DNA of 64,000 bases from Cellulophaga algicola DSM 14237. Its GTDB lineage: Bacteria > Bacteroidota > Bacteroidia > Flavobacteriales > Flavobacteriaceae. The translations under genes and the position numbers were made by a program. The stretch's first letter is position 1; every line of letters begins with the position of its first letter. The notes under the pieces are model-generated. The model ran no database searches and was not told the DNA's origin. It was given only the letters and a program-made list of their open reading frames with translations. Shown here one piece after another: positions 31,602 to 62,141 of the stretch. Location of the stretch: positions 2,418,001 to 2,482,000 of the forward strand of contig NC_014934.1 of the NCBI RefSeq assembly GCF_000186265.1. Reading direction: 5' to 3'.

Positions 31602-32690
31602 ATGCAAAAGATAATTAAAGAGTTTCCAATTTTAGATCAAACCATCTATGCAAATACAGCAGCCTACGGAATTATGTATGACGGCCTTTTAGATTGGCGT
31701 CAAGAACATGATTTAGATTATTTAATTGGAGGTAGTGATTTTAAACTTAAGGCGGCAAAGTTAATAACACAGGTGAGAGCCACTGTAGGGGCTTTTTTTA
31801 ATTGTAAAAATGAGAATGTAGCCTTGGTTCAGAACTTTTCATTAGGAATGAATATGCTGTTAGAGGGCTTAGATGCTTCAAATAAGGTATTGTTATTAGA
31901 TGATGATTACCCTTCTCTAAAATGGCCGTTTATGAGCCGTGGTTTTGATGTGCACTATGTAGCTATACTTCAAGGAAATTTAGAAGAAAACATTGTAGAA
32001 AAAATCAAATCAGAGAAAATTACCATTTTGGCAATTAGTATTGTACAATGGGTAAATGGGATTAAGATCGATTTGGATTTTCTTGCTAAACTTAAAGCGG
32101 AATTTCCAGAATTATTAATTATAGCCGATGGAACTCAGTTCTGTGGTACAGAAGATTTTGATTTTGATAATTCGGCAATAGATGTTTTAGGGGCTAGTGG
32201 TTATAAGTGGTTGCTTGCGGGCAGTGGTAACGGTTTCATGCTTTTTAAGGAAGAGATTAAGAATCGCTTTACGTTGAAAACCGCCGGTTTTAATTCTGCT
32301 AATGGTGTCGTTGATGGATTTGATACGATTAAATTTGTCAAACATTTTGAGCCAGGCCATTTAGATACCTTAAGTTTTGGTAGCTTAAAATGTTCTCTTG
32401 ATTTTTTATCGGGTATTGGGATGAAGGTTATTGGTGACGCAAATGCCGCTTTGAGTGCTTATGCTTTTCAAGAGTTCTCGAAATTAGAAGTACTGGAAGC
32501 TACCGTCTTGGCAAGAGATAAGCATAGTACCATTTTTAATATTACGGGAAATCAAAAAATGTTTGATGCGCTCCTTAATAATGATATTATGTGTTCACAG
32601 CGTGGAGAGGGTATTAGACTAAGTTTTCATTTCTATAATACGATTAAAAATGTTGCTAAAGTTATAAATGTCATAAAAAAAACGAAGTAA
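31602..32690 (+). CDS. Class V aminotransferase family protein (PLP-dependent)
   Basis: The product has 362 residues. Fold-type I landmarks are YANTAAYGIMYDGL at the N-terminus, the cofactor-binding ALVQNFSLGMNMLLEGL, LIIADGTQFCGTEDFDFDNSAIDVLGASGYKWLL (PLP Asp and Schiff-base Lys in YKWLL), and the C-terminal IRLSFHFYNTIKNVAKVI. It resembles the selenocysteine lyase/cysteine desulfurase-like group but lacks an evident catalytic cysteine loop, so a desulfurase role is not supported. Substrate unknown. It stands alone, divergent from the 2TM gene. Confidence 0.85.
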   Translation: MQKIIKEFPILDQTIYANTAAYGIMYDGLLDWRQEHDLDYLIGGSDFKLKAAKLITQVRATVGAFFNCKNENVALVQNFSLGMNMLLEGLDASNKVLLLDDDYPSLKWPFMSRGFDVHYVAILQGNLEENIVEKIKSEKITILAISIVQWVNGIKIDLDFLAKLKAEFPELLIIADGTQFCGTEDFDFDNSAIDVLGASGYKWLLAGSGNGFMLFKEEIKNRFTLKTAGFNSANGVVDGFDTIKFVKHFEPGHLDTLSFGSLKCSLDFLSGIGMKVIGDANAALSAYAFQEFSKLEVLEATVLARDKHSTIFNITGNQKMFDALLNNDIMCSQRGEGIRLSFHFYNTIKNVAKVINVIKKTK

Positions 32691-32839: not shown

Positions 32840-33136
32840 ATGGCTATCACAAAACAGTATTTAAAAAGTAAGCCGGTATGTAAAGTGACTTTTACAGTGC
32901 CAGCAGAAGAAGCTTCTAAAGTTTATGTAGTAGGAGATTTCAATAATTGGAATCCTAAAAAAGGAACTTTAAGGAAATTAAAGAATGGTACTTTTAAAGG
33001 CACTATGGACTTACCTAAGGAGGCATCTTATGAATTTAGATACCTTATAGATGATACTTATGTTAATGAAGCTGAGGCAGATCGTTATCAATGGAATGAA
33101 TTTGCAGGCACAGAGAATGCAGTTTTAGAGTTATAA
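32840..33136 (+). CDS. Stand-alone CBM48/isoamylase early-set domain protein
   Basis: The product has 98 residues and is only a glycogen-binding-type Ig fold: VCKVTFTVPAEEASKVYVVGDFNNWNPKKGTLRKL (typical VGDFNNW carbohydrate-binding turn) and YEFRYLIDDTYVNEAEADRY. Such domains normally flank glycogen-branching or AMPK-type enzymes; as a lone cytosolic protein it may bind glucans or a partner enzyme. There is no signal peptide. Its 3' end (NAVLEL and terminator) was duplicated about 1 kb downstream. No glycogen genes are nearby. Confidence 0.88.
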   Translation: MAITKQYLKSKPVCKVTFTVPAEEASKVYVVGDFNNWNPKKGTLRKLKNGTFKGTMDLPKEASYEFRYLIDDTYVNEAEADRYQWNEFAGTENAVLEL

Positions 33137-33195
33137 TTATCATATTAAATTTCATAAAAAAAAGCCGAAACAATTTGTTTCGGCTTTTTTGTGTT
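33114..33195. repeat. Duplicated segment, copy 1
   Basis: It covers the last codons of the CBM48 gene (NAVLEL stop), its terminator and the 3' flank of the first TonB_C gene. It is closely similar to 34086-34160, including the same terminator core (GCCGAAACAATTTGTTTCGG against GCCGATACAATTTGTTTTGG). Confidence 0.85.
33161..33190. terminator. Bidirectional terminator, CBM48 and TonB_C genes
   Basis: AAAGCCGAAAC (33161-33171) pairs with GTTTCGGCTTT (33177-33187) over a 5-base loop. An A-run precedes and a T-run follows, so it serves both convergent genes. Confidence 0.88.
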
Positions 33196-34044
33196 TTATT
33201 GAAGTCTAAATGTTATTGGGAGAGAGAAGGGGACCTTAACAGGTTTTCCGTCTTCTTCTCCTGGCTCCATTTGAGGTAGTTTAGCGATAATTCTTCTTGC
33301 TTCTAATTCCAATACAGGATGAGATCCTCTGGTTTTTATAGCTGTTATATTGCCTTCTTTATCTATCATAAATATAACGTTCACTCTTCCTTGTATTCCC
33401 TTTTCTTGTGCAAATTCTGGATAGCGAAAGTTCTTCATGATGTGTTTCATCATTTTTCCTTGAAAGCACTGTTTTCGCTGCTGCTCACTTTCTATTTCAC
33501 ATCCGGGAAATACAGGTACTTTGTCTATGATGTTAAATTCAATAACTTCTGAATTTTCATTTTTCTTGGTTTTAGGTTTTTCAAATCTAGTTTTAATATC
33601 AATAATTTTAAATAGTGTCTTTTCTTCGGGAGTAATTTTTAGCTCTAAAATAAAAGTGGTGTTACCTTTAATATTATCTTCTGTAGAAGGTGTCATTTTT
33701 GGTAATTGCGCTATGGAACCATCTAGTGGCTCTCTGATTATTTCGTCATCAGAATCATAGAAATCAACCTTGTGTATTTCACCAATAGAATCTACTTTAA
33801 AACTAAAATAAACAGATCGTCCGTTGGTATTTGTTTCTGTCTTTTCTTCTTGGTAGTCAAATGAAGCCTCAAAGTTTGTGATCAAAATTTTTCTAAAGCA
33901 TTCTTCTGCAGCACTACTTGTCGTCGTGTTACAATCTTTAAAAGTTGCAAAATTGTTTTCTAGAAATGGGTTGTAATTTGTGGTTTGTGATAGCGCATTA
34001 CAAGAGATAAGTACTATGGCTATGCGTATTAAAATGGTTTTCAT
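33196..34044 (-). CDS. Secreted TonB_C-domain protein (paralogue 3 of 3)
   Basis: The product has 282 residues with a signal peptide (MKTILIRIAIVLISCNALSQ). Two TonB_C-like units follow: a degenerate one (about 45-150, with SVYFSFKVDSIGEIHKVDF and AQLPKMTPSTE) and a canonical C-terminal one (about 195-282, FRYPEFAQEKGIQGRVNVIFMID to ITFRLQ). A Cys pair marks each unit (NCN..EEC and PGCE..QCF). There is no TonB-type membrane anchor or proline-rich spacer, so it is unlikely to energise receptors alone. It arose by tandem duplication with the gene at 34160; the junction is still visible upstream of its ATG. Confidence 0.85.
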   Translation of the reverse strand: MKTILIRIAIVLISCNALSQTTNYNPFLENNFATFKDCNTTTSSAAEECFRKILITNFEASFDYQEEKTETNTNGRSVYFSFKVDSIGEIHKVDFYDSDDEIIREPLDGSIAQLPKMTPSTEDNIKGNTTFILELKITPEEKTLFKIIDIKTRFEKPKTKKNENSEVIEFNIIDKVPVFPGCEIESEQQRKQCFQGKMMKHIMKNFRYPEFAQEKGIQGRVNVIFMIDKEGNITAIKTRGSHPVLELEARRIIAKLPQMEPGEEDGKPVKVPFSLPITFRLQ

Positions 34045-34085
34045 ATTAAAGCTTAAAGGTCAATACAATGAATTTTTACGAACAA

Positions 34086-34160
34086 AGAATGCTGTTTTAG
34101 AGTTGTAATTATCTTATTTGATTTTTTAAAAAAGCCGATACAATTTGTTTTGGCTTTTCT
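34086..34160. repeat. Duplicated segment, copy 2 (CBM48 gene remnant)
   Basis: AAG AAT GCT GTT TTA GAG TTG TAA reads KNAVLEL stop on the plus strand, a non-functional relic of the CBM48 3' end. It is followed by the same intergenic sequence and terminator as copy 1, with the following TonB_C stop region also matching. Confidence 0.85.
34127..34158 (-). terminator. Terminator after the second TonB_C gene
   Basis: AAAAGCCGAT..(34130-34139) pairs imperfectly with GTTTTGGCTTTT (34147-34158), one mismatch and one G-U. It is the diverged copy of the terminator at 33161-33190 and has a T-run on the minus strand. Confidence 0.7.
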
Positions 34161-34981
34161 TATTGTAATTTAAATGAGATTGGAATTGTAAAAGCGATAG
34201 TTGTTGGTTGGCCATTTAATGTTCCAGGCCTAAATGTTGGTAGCTTAGAAATAATTGATTGAGCTTCTTCAAGTAAACTTGCAGGTCCTTTTGCTCTCAT
34301 TTTTTCTACCTTACCTTCTTCATTAATTTTAAAATTCACATAAACAACACCTTGTACACCAATTTCTTGCGCTATTTCAGGGTATCTAAAGTGTTTTCGG
34401 ATATGATTGACTATTTGTGATTGAAAATTTCGTTGATCAGTTTGCTGATCTGTGTATACCTGACCTTCAAATAAGGGTATTCTTGTAATTTCTCCACCTT
34501 TATAAATTTCATTTTCGGGAGTGCTAATTGATGTGAATTTATGATTTACTTCTTGGGTGAAATAAAAGTTAAATGAGTGTGAAGAAATATATTTATCTGT
34601 TTTTCTATTTTCTACTTTGAATGCAGGGATTTTTGTAATTGACTTTTTAAGTGAATCTCCAATTTTCCGTTTAATAATAGAATCATTGGCAAAAGTACTT
34701 ATGTTAGCTTCAATAATTTCACCTAGCTTGTTTGTATTAAAATTTACATAAATATTCAAGGTGTCTTTATAGCTTTTGGTAGATTTTTCTATGTTATTTA
34801 ATGCTAATTCCACTTTCTTTAAAAGAATAGATTCTAAGCATTGATTGGTGTCTTTAGATTTTTTACAGTTTTCATGTATTAATTGTTCTACAGGGAAAAA
34901 AGTTATTGCGGTATCTTCCTGACTATAAAGTTGTATAGTACCAGAAATGAGCGCTAATAAGTATATTAAAATGGTTTTCAT
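34160..34981 (-). CDS. Secreted TonB_C-domain protein (paralogue 2 of 3)
   Basis: The product has 273 residues with a signal peptide (MKTILIYLLALISGTIQLYSQ). The same two-unit plan as its neighbour is visible: an N-terminal degenerate unit with Cys pair (ENCKKSKDTNQC), and a C-terminal TonB_C unit HFRYPEIAQEIGVQGVVYVNF to ISFKLQ. The second unit has IPLFEGQVYTDQQTDQRNF where the paralogues have PxFPGCE and CF, so both cysteines are lost together. It starts one base after the stop of the 34983 gene and is probably co-transcribed with it and thyA. Confidence 0.83.
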   Translation of the reverse strand: MKTILIYLLALISGTIQLYSQEDTAITFFPVEQLIHENCKKSKDTNQCLESILLKKVELALNNIEKSTKSYKDTLNIYVNFNTNKLGEIIEANISTFANDSIIKRKIGDSLKKSITKIPAFKVENRKTDKYISSHSFNFYFTQEVNHKFTSISTPENEIYKGGEITRIPLFEGQVYTDQQTDQRNFQSQIVNHIRKHFRYPEIAQEIGVQGVVYVNFKINEEGKVEKMRAKGPASLLEEAQSIISKLPTFRPGTLNGQPTTIAFTIPISFKLQ

Positions 34982-34982
34982 A

Positions 34983-35456
34983 TTAAAGTTTAAAGGTCAA
35001 TGGAATGGAGTATAGCGTTCTAACAATTTCACCGCCATGTTGTCCGGGTTCTAGCATATTAGGGATTAACGCTGTAATTCTTTTAGCCTCATTTTCCAAT
35101 AACTCGTGAGGCCCTCTAACAGTTATGTTGGTTATTTTTCCTGTTCCATCAATTATGAATCTAGAAAAAACTCTCCCTTGTATGTTATTTTTTTTAGCTT
35201 CCTCTGGGTAGATAAAATTTGCGCTAATATGGTCGAAAATTTTTTGTTGAAAACAGTCTTTTTTATCTTCAGAGGAATCATTCTCACAACCTGGGAATAG
35301 TGGTGCGATATCTAAAACAGAAAATGGAATTTCTGTCATTTCTTCAACGTCTTCAACCTCTCTAATTTCAATTTCTTCAATAATTGTTTCTTGTTGTGCT
35401 GTTGCTACATTTTGGAACGCTAGGAATAACAGCGCGAGTACATATATTTTTTTCAT
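34983..35456 (-). CDS. Secreted TonB_C-domain protein (paralogue 1 of 3)
   Basis: The product has 157 residues from the ATG at 35456 (MKKIYVLALLFLAFQ, signal peptide ending near ATAQ). A short acidic linker (EEIEIREVEDVEEM) leads to one TonB_C domain with APLFPGCENDSSEDKKDCF, FIYPEEAKKNNIQGRVFSRFIID and LYSIPLTFKL. A longer reading from 35474 would start inside thyA and put MLYNHT before the signal, so it is rejected. It starts 7 bases after thyA and runs into paralogue 2. Confidence 0.83.
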   Translation of the reverse strand: MKKIYVLALLFLAFQNVATAQQETIIEEIEIREVEDVEEMTEIPFSVLDIAPLFPGCENDSSEDKKDCFQQKIFDHISANFIYPEEAKKNNIQGRVFSRFIIDGTGKITNITVRGPHELLENEAKRITALIPNMLEPGQHGGEIVRTLYSIPLTFKL

Positions 35457-35463
35457 GGTATGG

Positions 35464-36288
35464 TTATATAGCAACCACGCCTTTTATGTGTGGATGCGGA
35501 TTATAGTCTACTAAGGTAAAGTCTTCAAATTTAAAATCAAAAATATTCTTCACTTCTGGGTTTAAAACCATTTTAGGTAATGGTCTAGGATCTCTGCTTA
35601 ACTGAAGTTCTACTTGGTCCATATGGTTGTTATAGATGTGAGCATCACCAAAAGTATGTATAAAATCTCCTGCTTCGTAGCCACAAGCTTGCGCCATCAT
35701 CATAGTAAACAAAGCATAAGATGCAATGTTAAAAGGTACGCCTAAAAAAATATCTGCACTGCGTTGGTATAATTGACACGATAATTTACCATCTGCAACA
35801 TAGAATTGGAAGAAAGCATGACAAGGCGGTAAAGCAGCTTTTCCGTTGGCAACGTTTTCAGAGAAAGATTTAGAGGTGTCTGGCAACACACTAGGGTTCC
35901 ATGCAGAAATTAGCATTCTTCTGCTGTTAGGGTTATTCTTTAAAGTCTCTACTGCGTCTTTTATTTGATCTATTTCTTCGCTATTCCAATTACGCCACTG
36001 ATGACCATAAACAGGACCTAAATCTCCATTTTCATCTGCCCAATCATTCCAGATGCGCACCCCGTTTTCTTTTAGGTAATCAATATTTGTATCTCCTTTT
36101 AAAAACCAAAGTAATTCATAGATAATGGACTTCAAATGTAATTTTTTGGTCGTAACCATCGGAAACCCTTTGCTTAAATCAAAGCGCATTTGATATCCAA
36201 AAACACTTTTAGTTCCCGTACCCGTACGATCGCCTTTTTGGTTTCCTGTTTCTAATACATGCTGTAATAAATCGTGATATTGTTTCAT
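35464..36288 (-). CDS. thyA: Thymidylate synthase ThyA
   Basis: The product has 274 residues from [15 protein letters not shown]. It has the dUMP/folate motifs [40 protein letters not shown], the active-site Cys in [36 protein letters not shown] and the C-terminal [15 protein letters not shown]. The enzyme makes dTMP using methylene-tetrahydrofolate. An ATG at 36381 lies upstream of the promoter -7 box (36335-36342) and is rejected. folA, folK and dNK genes in the same window belong to the same pathway. Confidence 0.97.
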
Positions 36289-49398: not shown

Positions 49399-50304
49399 AT
49401 GAAAAAAATTTTACTATTTATCGTTACCTGTCTTCTTCATTTTTCAAGTACACAGGCTCAAGACTTTCAAGGAAAGGCAATTTACCTTTCTAAAACATCT
49501 GTGGGCGACTTTAATTTTGGGGGTCGTGAAATTTCTGAAGAACAAAAGAAAAGATTCATGGCACGCATGAAAGAACAGTCTGAAAAAACATTTATACTGA
49601 CGTTTGATAAAACTGCTGCAATTTATGAGGAAGAAGAAAAGCTAGAAACTCCAGGAAGAGATAATGGAGGAAGAGGTGGGTTTAGATTTGGAGATTTTTC
49701 TGGAGGCAAATTATATAAGAATATTAAAGACCAAAATTATGCTAAAGAATCAGAAATGTTTGGTAAAGTATTCTTAATCAAAGATGACCTGAAGCAATTA
49801 AATTGGACGATGGGTTCTGAAACTAAGAAAATTGGTAATTATACCTGTTATAAAGCAACCGCTATACAAGCGATTGATTCTACGGGTTTTGATAGCTTAC
49901 GAAAAAGAAGAGATAGCGAACGTAAAAAGGAGGAGAAAGAGGATGTTGTAACAAAGGATTCTACTAAGAGTAAAGTCAGCATGTTTAAAGAGAGAGAAGA
50001 ACCAAAAGAAATTGAAATCACAGCTTGGTTTACTCCTGAGATTCCTGTAAGTCAAGGACCAGGAGAATACTGGGGCTTACCCGGTTTAATATTAGAAGTT
50101 AATGCGGGTAACACGGTACTACTTTGCACTAAGATTGTTTTGAATACTGATGAAAAGATAGCAATAGAAGCACCAACAAAAGGAAAGGTTATATCGCAGC
50201 AAGAATATAATGAAACACTTTTGCTTAAGATGGAAGAAATGTCAGAACGCTTTAGGGGTGGTAATAGAGGTTCGGGTGGTAACTCAAATAGAGGAAGAAA
50301 CTAA
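49399..50304 (+). CDS. GLPGLI-family secreted protein
   Basis: The product has 301 residues. A signal peptide (MKKILLFIVTCLLHFSSTQAQ) leads to a mainly beta domain with FILTFDKTAAIYEEEEK, VFLIKDDLKQLNWTMGSETKKIGNYTCYKAT and the family name motif in YWGLPGLILEVNAG (about 230-243). The end is low-complexity Gly/Arg/Asn. GLPGLI proteins in Bacteroidota often precede TonB-dependent-receptor-like genes, as here: the next gene starts by TAATG overlap. Function unknown; a surface or periplasmic partner of the receptor is inferred. Confidence 0.92.
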   Translation: MKKILLFIVTCLLHFSSTQAQDFQGKAIYLSKTSVGDFNFGGREISEEQKKRFMARMKEQSEKTFILTFDKTAAIYEEEEKLETPGRDNGGRGGFRFGDFSGGKLYKNIKDQNYAKESEMFGKVFLIKDDLKQLNWTMGSETKKIGNYTCYKATAIQAIDSTGFDSLRKRRDSERKKEEKEDVVTKDSTKSKVSMFKEREEPKEIEITAWFTPEIPVSQGPGEYWGLPGLILEVNAGNTVLLCTKIVLNTDEKIAIEAPTKGKVISQQEYNETLLLKMEEMSERFRGGNRGSGGNSNRGRN

Positions 50305-53000
50305 TGAGAAATCTATTTATAAAAAAGCACGTACTAGTGCTTATCGCTTTAATTGCTTTGATAAATGTCGCTATTGCTCAGAAAATCACCATTACGGGAG
50401 TATTAAAAGATTCACTAGGAAGCCCCTTAGAAATGGCCAATGTGGTTGCTGTAAATCAAGAAACAAAGAGTCTGGATGGTTTCGGAATTACAGATCCTAA
50501 TGGAAAATATAAGGTTAGCGTGAATCAAAACAGTTCGTATAGCTTAAAATTCAGCTATATCGGTTTTCAACCAAAAGAACTATTGATTAAAACCCTAGAA
50601 GAAGACCTACAACGCGATATAATATTGGCAGAACAAGCACAGAGCTTAGATGAGGTTGAAGTAGTTTATGAGATGCCTGTGGTAGTGAAAGGAGATACCA
50701 TTGTGTATAATACAGACTCTTTTGTTACTGGAACAGAAAAAAAACTGGAAGATGTACTCAGCAAACTTCCGGGGGTAGAAATAAATGATGATGGTGAAAT
50801 ACAAGTAGAAGGAAAGACCGTTACTAAAGTGATGGTCAATGGCAAGGATTTTTTTGATGGTGATTCTAAACTGGCTGCAAAAAATATTCCGGCAAATGCC
50901 CTTGATAAAATAGAAGTGCTGAGAAATTATAGTGAGGTATCGCAATTAAAAGGGGTCACAAACAATCAAGATAACGTAGCTTTAAATATTAGATTAAAAA
51001 CAGGAAAAGAAAAATTTTGGTTCGGAGAAATTACAGCGGGTTTAGGGTTAGATAATAGGTATTTGGCACATCCTAAACTATTTTTTTACAGTCCTAAATA
51101 TAGTGTCAACATTTTAACAGACCTTAATAATATTGGGCAATTGCCTTTTACATCAAGAGATTATAGAAATTTTACCGGTGGCTTTAGAAGCAGAACAGGA
51201 AATACGGGAACTAGTTTTAACGTTGGCGATGGTGGTCTGGGTTTGTCTCAGCTTCAAAACAACCGTGCTAAAGAAATAGAAACAAGATTTGGAGCGGTTA
51301 ATTTTAGTTATGCTCCAACAGAAAAATTAGATTTAAGTGGGTTCGCAATTTATTCCTACGCCAATACAGATTTACAGACGGTGGCTACACGAACGTATAT
51401 TAGTAGTAATCAGCAAGAGGTAACGACAACAGGTACTGAACAAACATCTAATTTAGGATTGCTAAAATTAAGTGCGGCATACACGCCAAATACAAACATG
51501 CAGGTGGAGTATGATGCGCTTGCAAAGTTTTCTGATGAGCATGAGGATGTAGGAATATTGTCTGTAGCAGATGTCACAGATCAAATTTTTGAAAACAAAC
51601 AGCAAACTCCCTCTAGTTTTAATCAGAATGCAAATGTTTATTATACCGTAAATGAGAAGAATATATTGGCTGTTGAAGCACAATATTTAATTCAAAATGA
51701 AGATCCGTTTTATAATGCAATCAGAGAAATACAACCTTTTGAAAGTATTCTCCCTTTGAATGAAGATCAAGCGAATTATAATATCAATCAAGATCGAAAA
51801 ATAAAAACGAATAAGTTTGATTTTAAAACCGATTACTATTTTATTACAGGGCCAAAAAGTAATATTAATTTTACGTTAGGAACCACTCAAAGTAGTCAGA
51901 AATTTAATTCAAATATTTTTCAAATTTTAGATAACGAATCAACTTTAGCGTTTACAGATGACGATTTAGTTAATGATGTGGAATATAAGTTCTCTGATAT
52001 TTTTTTCGGATTTCATTATAAATTAATTGTCGGGAAATTGACATTTAATCCAGGATTCAAAGTTCATGATTATACAGCGAAAAACACGCAATTAGGAGCA
52101 TCGGTTACAGATGATTTGTTCAATATTGTTCCAGATCTTTTTATAAATCTTCAATTAAAGCAATCAGAAAGTATTCGGTTTAATTATGGCGTTAACCGAC
52201 AGTTTTCAGATATAGATAAATTTTCAAGGGCCTATATTTTTAGCAATTACAACTCCATGTATCAAGGTAATCGTGATTTAGAAAGTGCTTTATTCCATAA
52301 TTTATCACTTAATTTTTTCAGCTTTAGTATGTTTAATATGCAAAATATCTTTGCAAATATTAACTATAGTAAGCGTGTAGATGCATTTAAAAACAATAGT
52401 TCAATTGTCGGAATTAATCAGGTAAGTTCTACTATTAATTCTAATTTAGAGGATGAAGTGTTATCTGGTTCTGCTAATTTTCAAAGAACATTTGGAAAAA
52501 TTAAAGTGAGTTCTAAGGGTTCGCTTTCCTATTCTAATTTAAATAATATTGTTAACGGTAGCCCTAGTACCTCAGAGTCTTTAACTCAAAGTTATAGAGC
52601 TTCATTGGCTACGAGTTTTAGGGATGCACCAAATGTTGAGTTTGGGTATACTTATGCAGTTAATAATTATGATAACGGTGGGAACTCATCTACATATTAT
52701 ACAGATACGCCTTTTCTTAAAGTTGATGCTGCCTTTCTGAAACGTTTTATTTTTCTAGCAGATTTAGAGTATTACCATTACAGGGATAAAGCAAACTCTA
52801 TTAATAATGAATACGGAAATTTAGATACCAGTATATCGTATCAAAAAGAAGATAGTAAATGGGCATATAGTGTAGAAGTGACTAATTTACTGAACAATAC
52901 AGAGCTAAATCAAGATAGCTTTAATGAGTTATTTTATAGGACCTCATCGTATGTGGTGCAACCACGATATGTGATGTTAAAAATTAAGTATGATTTGTAA
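50304..53000 (+). CDS. TonB-dependent receptor-like outer-membrane protein with CarboxypepD_reg domain
   Basis: The product has 898 residues. A signal peptide (to about IAQ) is followed by a carboxypeptidase-regulatory-like domain (ITGVLKDSLGSPLEMANVVAV, about 28-110), then a plug-like domain with VVYEMPVVVKGDTIVYNTDSF and KLEDVLSKLPGVEINDDGEIQVEGKTVTKVMVNGKDFFDGD, and a long beta-barrel region with alternating aromatic strands to SYVVQPRYVMLKIKYDL. It is the outer-membrane member of the GLPGLI pair. The ligand is unknown. No TonB box can be named with certainty. It ends 195 bases before metK. Confidence 0.88.
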   Translation: MRNLFIKKHVLVLIALIALINVAIAQKITITGVLKDSLGSPLEMANVVAVNQETKSLDGFGITDPNGKYKVSVNQNSSYSLKFSYIGFQPKELLIKTLEEDLQRDIILAEQAQSLDEVEVVYEMPVVVKGDTIVYNTDSFVTGTEKKLEDVLSKLPGVEINDDGEIQVEGKTVTKVMVNGKDFFDGDSKLAAKNIPANALDKIEVLRNYSEVSQLKGVTNNQDNVALNIRLKTGKEKFWFGEITAGLGLDNRYLAHPKLFFYSPKYSVNILTDLNNIGQLPFTSRDYRNFTGGFRSRTGNTGTSFNVGDGGLGLSQLQNNRAKEIETRFGAVNFSYAPTEKLDLSGFAIYSYANTDLQTVATRTYISSNQQEVTTTGTEQTSNLGLLKLSAAYTPNTNMQVEYDALAKFSDEHEDVGILSVADVTDQIFENKQQTPSSFNQNANVYYTVNEKNILAVEAQYLIQNEDPFYNAIREIQPFESILPLNEDQANYNINQDRKIKTNKFDFKTDYYFITGPKSNINFTLGTTQSSQKFNSNIFQILDNESTLAFTDDDLVNDVEYKFSDIFFGFHYKLIVGKLTFNPGFKVHDYTAKNTQLGASVTDDLFNIVPDLFINLQLKQSESIRFNYGVNRQFSDIDKFSRAYIFSNYNSMYQGNRDLESALFHNLSLNFFSFSMFNMQNIFANINYSKRVDAFKNNSSIVGINQVSSTINSNLEDEVLSGSANFQRTFGKIKVSSKGSLSYSNLNNIVNGSPSTSESLTQSYRASLATSFRDAPNVEFGYTYAVNNYDNGGNSSTYYTDTPFLKVDAAFLKRFIFLADLEYYHYRDKANSINNEYGNLDTSISYQKEDSKWAYSVEVTNLLNNTELNQDSFNELFYRTSSYVVQPRYVMLKIKYDL

Positions 53001-53047
53001 AATTGCAATTTGTTGTTAAACCATTTTTCAGATCCCATCTTTTATTT

Positions 53048-53055
53048 TACTTTTG
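53048..53055 (+). promoter_or_regulatory. -7 box of the metK leader
   Basis: TACTTTTG matches TAnnTTTG and ends 13 bases before the SAM-II-like element, as expected for its promoter. Confidence 0.62.
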
Positions 53056-53068
53056 TGCTATTATTAAT

Positions 53069-53117
53069 TGAGGACGGATTTGACTGATTGCAACCTCGTA
53101 AAAAATGCTAAAGCAGT
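53069..53117 (+). promoter_or_regulatory. SAM-II-class riboswitch aptamer upstream of metK
   Basis: The compact pseudoknot of SAM-II is visible. P1: TGAGG (53069-53073) with CCTCG (53094-53098). Its loop holds GATTTG and ACTGATTGCA; ACTG (53083-53086) pairs with CAGT (53114-53117) and GCA (53090-53092) with TGC (53106-53108), and the 3' tail contains the conserved GCTAAA (53107-53112). The gene product, SAM synthetase, is the expected target. The gap of 78 bases to the ATG leaves the regulatory mechanism open. Confidence 0.85.
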
Positions 53118-53195
53118 TGTGACTGAAATTTCTTTTCGGTTCATAAACTTCTTTTAACCTTTCTGTCAAGTCTATTCTAGAAAATAAAACCATTT

Positions 53196-54452
53196 ATGGC
53201 TTATTTATTCACATCAGAATCTGTTAGTGAAGGACACCCAGATAAAGTAGCAGACCAAATAAGTGATGCGCTTTTAGATAATTTTTTGGCATTTGATCCA
53301 GAAAGTAAAGTAGCATGCGAAACATTAGTAACTACAGGTCAAGTAGTGTTGGCAGGTGAAGTTAAGAGTGATACCTATTTAGATGTTCAACAAATAGCAA
53401 GAGATGTTATCAATAAAATTGGATATACGAAAGGAGAATATCAATTTAGTGGAGACTCTTGTGGTGTTATTTCTTTAATACATGAGCAGTCTAAAGATAT
53501 TAGTCAAGGTGTAGATCGCGGTTCTAAAGAAGAGCAAGGTGCAGGAGATCAAGGAATGATGTTTGGCTACGCTACGAAAGAAACAGAAAACTACATGCCT
53601 TTGGCTTTAGATATTTCGCATAAAATATTACAGATCTTAGCAGATTTAAGAAGAGAAGGTAAAGAAATTTCTTATTTAAGACCAGATGCTAAAGCGCAGG
53701 TAACCATAGAATATAGTGATGAAAATGTACCTCAACGTATAGATACTATTGTAGTTTCTACTCAGCATGATGCTTTTGATGCAGATGATGAAAAAATGTT
53801 GGCGAAAATTAAATCGGATATCATTTCTATCCTAATTCCTAAAGTAAAGGAACAATTGCCAGCACATATACAGACCTTGTTTGACGATGCTATTACCTAT
53901 CATATTAACCCAACAGGGAAATTTGTAATTGGTGGTCCTCATGGAGATACGGGGTTAACAGGTCGTAAGATTATTGTAGATACGTACGGTGGTAAAGGCG
54001 CTCACGGTGGTGGTGCATTTAGTGGTAAAGATCCTAGTAAAGTAGATAGAAGTGCTGCATATGCTGCACGTCATGCCGCTAAGAACTTAGTTGCAGCAGG
54101 AGTTGCCGATGAGATTTTAGTACAAGTAAGTTATGCTATTGGAGTGGTAGAACCAACCTCTATCTACGTAGATACATACGGTACTGCTAAGGTGAATTTA
54201 AACGATGGGCAGATTGCAAGAAAAGTAGCCGAATTGTTTGACATGCGTCCGTTTGCAATTGAAGAACGCTTAAAATTACGTAATCCAATTTATTTAGAGA
54301 CTGCAGCATACGGTCATATGGGAAAAGAACCTATAACAGTAACAAAAACTTTTGAATCTCCTTACAATGGTAGAGTAGAGAAAGAGGTAGAATTGTTTAC
54401 TTGGGAAAAACTAGATATGCTGGATCAAGTGAAAGCAACATTTGGAATATAA
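53196..54452 (+). CDS. metK: S-adenosylmethionine synthetase
   Basis: The product has 418 residues, slightly longer than E. coli MetK as in many Bacteroidota. Signatures are [70 protein letters not shown] and [26 protein letters not shown]. It makes SAM from methionine and ATP. It is preceded by a SAM-II-like riboswitch and followed by the methionine-synthesis genes, so product feedback at RNA level is expected. Confidence 0.98.
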
Positions 54453-60872: not shown

Positions 60873-62141
60873 TTATAAACCCAAAGCTAGTACTGCAGAG
60901 TCATCAATTGCGTAAGCATAGGCTCTCCAAACAGTCGTGTAATCTGTATTTTGCCATAACACTTCGCCACTAGCTGTTACTTCCCAAATAGTACCATCTC
61001 TCCCTTCGGCGATTAAAGTGTTTCCATTACTCATGCGTACGCCACTACCAAGGCCTGAACTATATAATTCAGCATCCGTAAAACTCCATACAACCTCAGG
61101 TTCGTTATCTTCTCCAGCAACAAGTTCATAAGGAGGATTCAATTCATATTCTACCACTTCAGACTGGTTATCATATATATCATTAGCATACACAATCATA
61201 TTTCCAGTTTCTATTAAATTAGGGTAGTGTACATTTTTTAAAGTTACCTCTCCCACATTGTCATATGCAAGAGGGTTGCCAAAACGATAGACTAAATCTC
61301 CGCCTAAATTATAATTTCCGCCAGTACTAGTGCTAGCTTCTTCTGTAGTTGTGCTATGATCTAAAACCCAAACTTCACTATAATTATTTACAGTAATGTA
61401 TAGGATATCATTAGTTTCATCTAGTGTAAGACCATTAAAATGCATTAGATCTCCATTTGCCTGACTGCTATTATAATTAATGTCTACTTTATTAGGATGG
61501 TCTACTACAACGCCAAAATTTTCTTTTGAGGCATCGTGGTTTTGAACCAAATGATCTGTAACATGCCATTCCCAGATAATTTCTTCGGTCAATGGATTCA
61601 TTTCTACAATAGCATCAGGGAAAATATCGTTATTTTCAGAAAAGCCTAACTCAGCGGCTTCACTCGCGGTTACTTTTTCCCATACAGGAAAAATGATATT
61701 CCCATTAGATAGGTATTCCACATCATGATGAGCCATATACTCATCACCAGAAGTATAGGAAACTTCCCAGTCAATAGATTGGTACGCATTTATTTTTCTA
61801 AACATACCGCCATATCCCCCAAAAGTTATTCCGGCATTATCGGCTTTAAGGCAAACAACTAAACTACCGTCGTCTAAAAGATTTACGTCATTACCTAAAC
61901 TCCTATCAAATTCCCAGCTAAATAATTGGTCTCCGTCATGGTTTATTAAATAAGCACCATTGCTATTTGTGTCGGCTACCAAAATATAAGAATTGGTATC
62001 AATAGATTCTTCTTCAGAAGTATTTTCATCTGTAGCGGAAGAGCTGGTTTCACTATCGCTGCTACAAGCGCTAAAAGTTATCAAAGCAGTAATTAATAAG
62101 GCTTGCAGTAAAATCTTTAAGTGGGTTCTTTTTTTCATCAT
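60873..62141 (-). CDS. Arylsulfotransferase-like lipoprotein
   Basis: The product has 422 residues. A lipoprotein signal ends in LITFSACSSDSE (lipobox FSAC), followed by a Ser/Glu-rich linker to about residue 50. The rest is a beta-propeller-like arylsulfotransferase family domain: YMAHHDVEYLSNGNIIFPVWE (His region), EIIWEWHVTDHLVQNHD, DLMHFNGLTLDETNDILYI, WVLDHST and GNTLIAEGRDGTIWEV. The active-site His of the family is plausibly in one of the H-containing motifs. It may move sulfate between phenolic compounds outside the inner membrane. It ends at a shared terminator; start may be Met1 or Met2. Confidence 0.85.
   Translation of the reverse strand: MMKKRTHLKILLQALLITALITFSACSSDSETSSSATDENTSEEESIDTNSYILVADTNSNGAYLINHDGDQLFSWEFDRSLGNDVNLLDDGSLVVCLKADNAGITFGGYGGMFRKINAYQSIDWEVSYTSGDEYMAHHDVEYLSNGNIIFPVWEKVTASEAAELGFSENNDIFPDAIVEMNPLTEEIIWEWHVTDHLVQNHDASKENFGVVVDHPNKVDINYNSSQANGDLMHFNGLTLDETNDILYITVNNYSEVWVLDHSTTTEEASTSTGGNYNLGGDLVYRFGNPLAYDNVGEVTLKNVHYPNLIETGNMIVYANDIYDNQSEVVEYELNPPYELVAGEDNEPEVVWSFTDAELYSSGLGSGVRMSNGNTLIAEGRDGTIWEVTASGEVLWQNTDYTTVWRAYAYAIDDSAVLALGL

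Follow-up and report, generated by a model that had tools for sequence, protein, structure and literature searches.

The locus behind thyA in Cellulophaga algicola DSM 14237 raises the question of whether two adjacent TonB_C genes, here termed A and B, descend from one gene that was duplicated in place or came together in some other way. The DNA analyzed, referred to below as the window, was a stretch of 64,000 nucleotides of a genome that comprises 4,888,353 bases in one contig, the size given in the report on the C. algicola IC166T genome (PMC3072087). Three TonB_C genes follow thyA on the minus strand, in the order C, B, and A, while a CBM48 gene converges on them from the plus strand and is separated from gene A by a two-way terminator (Table 1). 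All three TonB_C genes exceeded the curated PF03544 cut-off of 24.6 bits (A 67.7, B 55.6, and C 45.5). Protein identities to the copies in three congeneric genomes, G005, G016 (C. baltica), and G010, were 97-99% for the CBM48 gene and 96-97% for thyA, while those of gene C were 69-72%.

Table 1. Genes, repeats, and relics between the CBM48 gene and thyA in C. algicola (positions in the window).
Feature	Position	Strand	Evidence
CBM48 / AMPK1_CBM gene, intact	32840..33136	+	Pfam PF16561 8.9e-08, PF02922 3.3e-07
Repeat R1, intact copy: CBM48 3' end and two-way terminator hairpin	33088..33190	+	sequence repeat, folding
Gene A, 282 aa: terminal TonB_C domain preceded by a similar-looking unit	33196..34044	-	PF03544 1.3e-18
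Repeat R2: first codons of A (MKTILI) and relic of gene C end	34028..34062	-	34/35 identical to 34965-34999
Junction TCAATACAATG of C relic and CBM48 relic	34060..34070	.	9/11 bases match TCAATGGAATG
In-frame relic of CBM48 gene end (15 codons and stop)	34060..34108	+	40/49 identical to own CBM48 end
Weakened relic terminator R1' between B and A	34124..34159	.	folding energy
Gene B, 273 aa, layout as in A	34160..34981	-	PF03544 7.7e-15
Repeat R2': first codons of B and intact end of gene C	34965..34999	-	34/35 match to R2
Gene C, single TonB_C unit	34983..35456	-	PF03544 1.1e-11
thyA (thymidylate synthase), same-strand gene upstream of C, B, and A	35464..36288	-	PF00303 1e-122

A sequence-only reading of the region had proposed that the gap between A and B holds a relic of the CBM48 gene end together with its terminator, and this proved to be real: 84 of 103 positions were identical to the intact C. 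algicola end, and local alignment of 33060-33200 with 34050-34180 scored 63, against a maximum of 19 in 2000 first-order Markov resamples. The match was found to begin at 33088 and 34060, not at 33114 as that reading had it. The second proposed relic, that of the end of gene C just upstream of the ATG of A (34044), was likewise borne out, scoring 20 on its own against a maximum of 13 in 5000 resamples; both relics thus exceed chance similarity. Both relics remain in frame, with GQYNEFLRTKNAVLEL-stop against YQWNEFAGTENAVLEL-stop in the comparison sequence for the CBM48 relic and, on the minus strand, IVLTFKL-stop against SIPLTFKL-stop for the C-end relic. The underlying repeat pairs had identities of 81% (33088-33161 with 34060-34133), 71% (33158-33227 with 34128-34197), and 81% (34027-34090 with 34964-35027).

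Because the CBM48 and C relic matches overlap on 11 bases at 34060-34070, we located the junction there, approximately 15 bases to the left of the earlier placement near 34080-34086. The 11-base TCAATGGAATG is intact both in the CBM48 gene (33088-33098) and at the end of gene C (34997-35007), and its counterpart at the junction is listed in Table 1. Among the four species this 11-base match is present today only in C. algicola, the equivalent sites in G005, G016, and G010 having about seven bases in common by eye. Thus, fragments of both flanks are doubled head to tail around a novel junction, as expected of a tandem duplication, and this part of the proposal, a doubling of the block bounded by the CBM48 3' end and the end of gene C, stands.

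The part of the proposal that did not hold concerns the genes, which had been taken as two copies of one. A and B share a similar length and layout and their first six residues, but when codon-aligned they were identical at only 82 of 270 residues (30%) and 409 of 810 bases (50%), far fewer than in their flanks. Similarity therefore falls from the gene start and C-end repeat (34/35), through the CBM48 end and terminator (84/103), to the genes themselves. B matched genes of five other genera at E-values of 2.8e-44 to 2.4e-41, while its match to A stood at 9.4e-30. The full-length tree grouped B with genes from other genera, and in a larger tree it belonged to an eight-row set with support of 99/96, although the branch of B is long and joins a second long one. 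Forcing A and B into one clade was rejected with full-length proteins (29 rows, p-AU 0.015), after removal of two long rows (p-AU 0.011), for the N-terminal part (p-AU 0.0024), and with six rows added (35 rows, p-AU 0.0004); it was not rejected for the TonB_C domain alone (p-AU 0.28). Hence, in four of five data cuts A and B do not appear to be each other's closest relatives, and the trees support a non-sister relation in which neither would be a copy of the other.

These reconstructions drew on 47 frames, of which 31 entered the first tree; the 16 omitted were seven repeats of the same genes and nine other frames, including L149, and the 35-row test added L149 and five more of the omitted frames. 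All sister tests excluded L120 and L095 as very long branches, and one repeat also excluded L151 and L153; L051 and rows shorter than 230 residues were omitted from the N-terminal cut. Matches to B at 1e-26 or better were found in 20 of 397 family genomes, counting our own and the A of G016. The five best outside the genus (2.4e-41 or better) all lay in TonB_C stretches that start directly behind thyA, the relative of B being the first gene in L150, L151, and L152 and the second in L153; in L149, the best of them, the match was the later part of one long open frame.

The sequence-only reading had predicted a one-copy state in relatives, and this was found in two forms. Among the 18 genus genomes searched, C. 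algicola included and with one genome per species, orthologs of A above 80% were present in two others, G005 (87%) and G016 (82%), and an ortholog of B in one, G010 (78%). The slot reads CBM48-A-C-thyA in G005 and G016 and CBM48-B-C-thyA in G010, so that each member of the pair occurs alone at the same locus, as expected of a duplication that unites two alleles. BLAST alignment of the window to G005 and G016 ran unbroken from about 4 kb to 34064 and restarted at 34968; relative to these genomes, the insert thus consists of B and one set of flanks. In G010, an insertion sequence with an integrase-core gene (about L031:1994-3307, probable target repeat TAA by eye) lies at the very end of B and divides it from its terminator. 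Over 9.3-62 kb, the window was 87.8% identical to G010 and 85.4-85.5% identical to G005 and G016, which were 95.6% identical to each other, and G010 rather than G005 was its closer match in 41 of 51 one-kb bins. It is therefore the sister genome that carries B alone, and the more distant pair that carries A alone.

Given the elements observed directly, namely both one-copy states, the tandem, the flank repeats, and the microhomology, A and B may be viewed as long-separated versions of a two-unit TonB_C gene at one slot (CBM48 - terminator - gene - C - thyA). In the C. algicola lineage, an unequal exchange between a molecule with A and one with B, both within the same flanks, would have linked the C end of the former to the CBM48 end of the latter at about 10 shared bases, to yield CBM48 - terminator - A - (end of C | end of CBM48) - terminator - B - C - thyA. 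We infer that B was already resident and that the DNA arriving from outside most likely carried the A side, out of the C. baltica lineage. A merger of two divergent alleles within the C. algicola lineage, by this or a two-step route, appears quite likely and probably postdates the split of these species, while the specific version in which a single unequal crossover sufficed has, in our estimate, an even chance.

Four-fold degenerate sites are consistent with this direction of movement. Between B and its ortholog in G010, 26 of 66 differed, an average value for that genome pair (rank 25 of 44 genes). For A the differences were low relative to G005 (26/79, rank 4 of 46) and came to 24/76 relative to G016 (rank 7 of 47), while A differed between G005 and G016 themselves at 23 of 86 sites, more than nearly all genes (rank 46 of 48). 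The CBM48 gene beside A was also low (10/36). The pattern fits, without proving, a history in which B was resident and A passed from one species to another, the synonymous sites giving modest support to an imported A.

Several observations nevertheless run counter to this account of a merger by a single crossover. The relic between the genes would be expected to derive from the B-bearing molecule, yet of the CBM48 ends compared, that of the B-only genome resembled it least (77/100 for G010, against 84/101 for G005, 83/101 for G016, and 84/103 for its own), and the confinement of the 11-base match to C. algicola, the result for the TonB_C domain, and the long branch of B likewise weigh against the account. 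A rival route takes two steps, in which a tandem duplication (A-A or B-B, at the same microhomology) came first and one copy was then replaced by a foreign allele through the shared flanks. From stop codon through hairpin, the relic resembled the A-only genomes more closely (G005 46/52, G016 45/52, G010 39/51), while the bases beyond the hairpin were B-type. Moreover, the starts of A and B are more alike within C. algicola (34/35) than either is to its ortholog (28/35 and 29/35), from which it follows that sequence has been shared between both positions. This route costs one extra event, and about 100 columns do not allow the switch point to be placed; we consider it possible but on the whole unlikely. 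An attempt to assign the relic to one parental lineage was abandoned, since the same columns were too few and a five-row tree gave no resolution.

The remaining histories differ in age or in kind from a recent merger of alleles. If A and B had already stood in tandem in the ancestor of the four species, recombination between the C-end repeats could have removed B from C. baltica and G005, and recombination between the CBM48-end repeats could have removed A from G010; both one-copy states are exactly the outcome expected of deletion between repeats. However, with four-fold sites as a neutral clock, a CBM48-end relic as old as the divergence of the four species should have gathered 14.1 changes of its own, and one as old as the separation from G010 should have gathered 11.7, whereas its 49 dead codon sites showed six (P 0.005 and P 0.034, respectively). 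By this measure the relic is too little changed to predate the four-species split, and its changes are rather few even for an age greater than the separation from G010; gene conversion between the repeats would, however, give it a young appearance. A was also closer between C. algicola and G005 than most genes are, and the stretches read in G005, G016, and G010 held no remnant of the missing gene, although a clean deletion would leave none. Taken together, an old tandem with reciprocal loss seems improbable. The original proposal, in which one gene was duplicated with its flanks and the copies diverged in place, accounts for the head-to-tail order, the junction, and the resemblance of A and B in length, layout, and first residues. 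It is largely contradicted by genes of 50% DNA identity between flanks of 82-97%, by one-copy relatives with each allele, and by the sister tests. Together with the ranking of similarities from flanks to genes, these results led us to reject plain duplication and divergence, which we regard as very improbable. The fossil and the flank doubling are real, and their history is most likely that of two alleles of one slot joined together.

Other parts of the window also depart from the overall relation to G010. The window is nearer to G005 than G010 at the aminotransferase gene at 31602-32690, where we considered transfer from the C. baltica side; this was dropped, because the four-fold sites make the G010 copy of this class V gene the odd one (0.65 to the window and 0.61 to G005), as if it had been replaced in G010. 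Across three genes at 49399-54452, four-fold differences were 0.15 to 0.31 to G016 and 0.39 to 0.49 to G010, and this region, nearer to the C. baltica-side genomes unlike most of the window, is a probable import. At 60873-62141, the four-fold difference to G010 was 19/145 (0.13) against a median of 0.39, pointing to a probable recent exchange with the G010 lineage.

The merger of alleles would have left a mark on the expression of A. The intact hairpin (33152-33196 folded) had predicted energies of -18.9 and -18.4 kcal/mol on the plus and minus strands, and the intact site and three one-copy genomes ranged from -15.6 to -23.6 kcal/mol on both strands (40-63-base stretches), while the relic hairpin (34124-34166 folded) reached -11.3 (plus) and -9.6 (minus). 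Order and spacing suggest that C, B, and A form one transcript, in which case A is now read only through the relic terminator. The relic terminator, a putative by-product of the merger, should then dampen A, with its predicted stability in that direction down by about half. The Bacteroidetes-type promoter pattern had five matches in the window, against a shuffle mean of 5.77, and none at A, B, or C. In the structural model of A, the order of helices and strands suggests two TonB-like units, and its one match to a solved structure at E 0.001 or better was 6i97_D (9.7e-05), a 90-residue chain in a FoxA complex. The next matches were TonB C-terminal domains (E 0.002 to 0.04), and all matches with a probability of at least 0.9 were such domains and their relatives. 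The model of B was weak (pLDDT 62). Together with an N-terminus that on visual inspection resembles a signal peptide, the predicted fold is consistent with a putative periplasmic role beside TonB-dependent transport.

We also considered how widely the slot between CBM48 and thyA is occupied. Of the 18 genus genomes, 12 had a CBM48 match (E 1e-30 or better): seven (L174-L178, L180, and L181) have thyA adjoining CBM48 without TonB_C genes, four (C. algicola, G005, G016, and G010) carry TonB_C genes in the slot, and in G007 an A-like gene (40%) adjoins thyA at 2.6 kb from CBM48. A wider scan of 80 CBM48 loci, made like the thyA scan with a TonB_C profile that omitted L120, found five with a TonB_C gene in the CBM48-thyA slot, 43 with a slot lacking one, and 32 without a usable thyA match in the stretch covered, among which L084 and L095 do contain TonB_C genes. 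Directly downstream of thyA, a TonB_C gene was present at eight of the 30 thyA loci examined, our own included. In seven of the 29 from other genera (L186, L192, L194, L195, L200, L201, and L202), one or two such genes per locus followed thyA on the same strand, and the thyA-TonB_C arrangement appears to be a recurrent array.

The stretch behind thyA is thus suggested to be a site of TonB_C gene gain, exchange, and loss in Flavobacteriaceae. A more far-reaching idea, which we put forward as doubtful, is that it serves as a site of TonB_C shuffling across the family, with the A-B tandem as a live intermediate that could collapse through the C-end (34/35) or CBM48-end (84/103) repeats to the A-only or B-only state. 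If so, lineages would switch between divergent periplasmic TonB-like proteins by the merging and collapse of alleles. Neighboring bacterial paralogs are usually taken to be diverged duplicates, and the scars at this locus indicate that a tandem pair can instead be two old alleles joined. Such a merger alters the dating of arrays and the presumed speed at which their proteins evolve.

In narrow literature searches, we found no case of unequal crossing over between divergent alleles in bacteria (the only match concerned fish antifreeze genes), no account of a thyA and TonB gene order in Flavobacteriaceae, and nothing under a combined query on short-repeat tandem duplications. Bacterial tandem duplications with short-homology junctions usually hold identical copies; the C. 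algicola pair resembles them in being joined at a short direct repeat, here of 11 bases, but differs in that the copies are different alleles. In gene displacement in situ and in pseudoparalogs, both described in bacteria, a foreign homolog replaces the resident gene inside a conserved neighborhood. The same elements recur in the proposed merger, a foreign homolog at the place of a resident gene with the neighborhood conserved; however, the resident was kept and scars of both neighbors were left, so that displacement became addition. The ace-1 duplications of mosquitoes bring together near-identical alleles in diploids, under insecticide selection. These heterogeneous duplications (PMC10997782, PMC5137868) are similar in form, in that a tandem holds two different alleles of one locus. 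The C. algicola pair differs in its alleles and their setting, A and B being 30% identical in residues and standing in a bacterium, without known selection.
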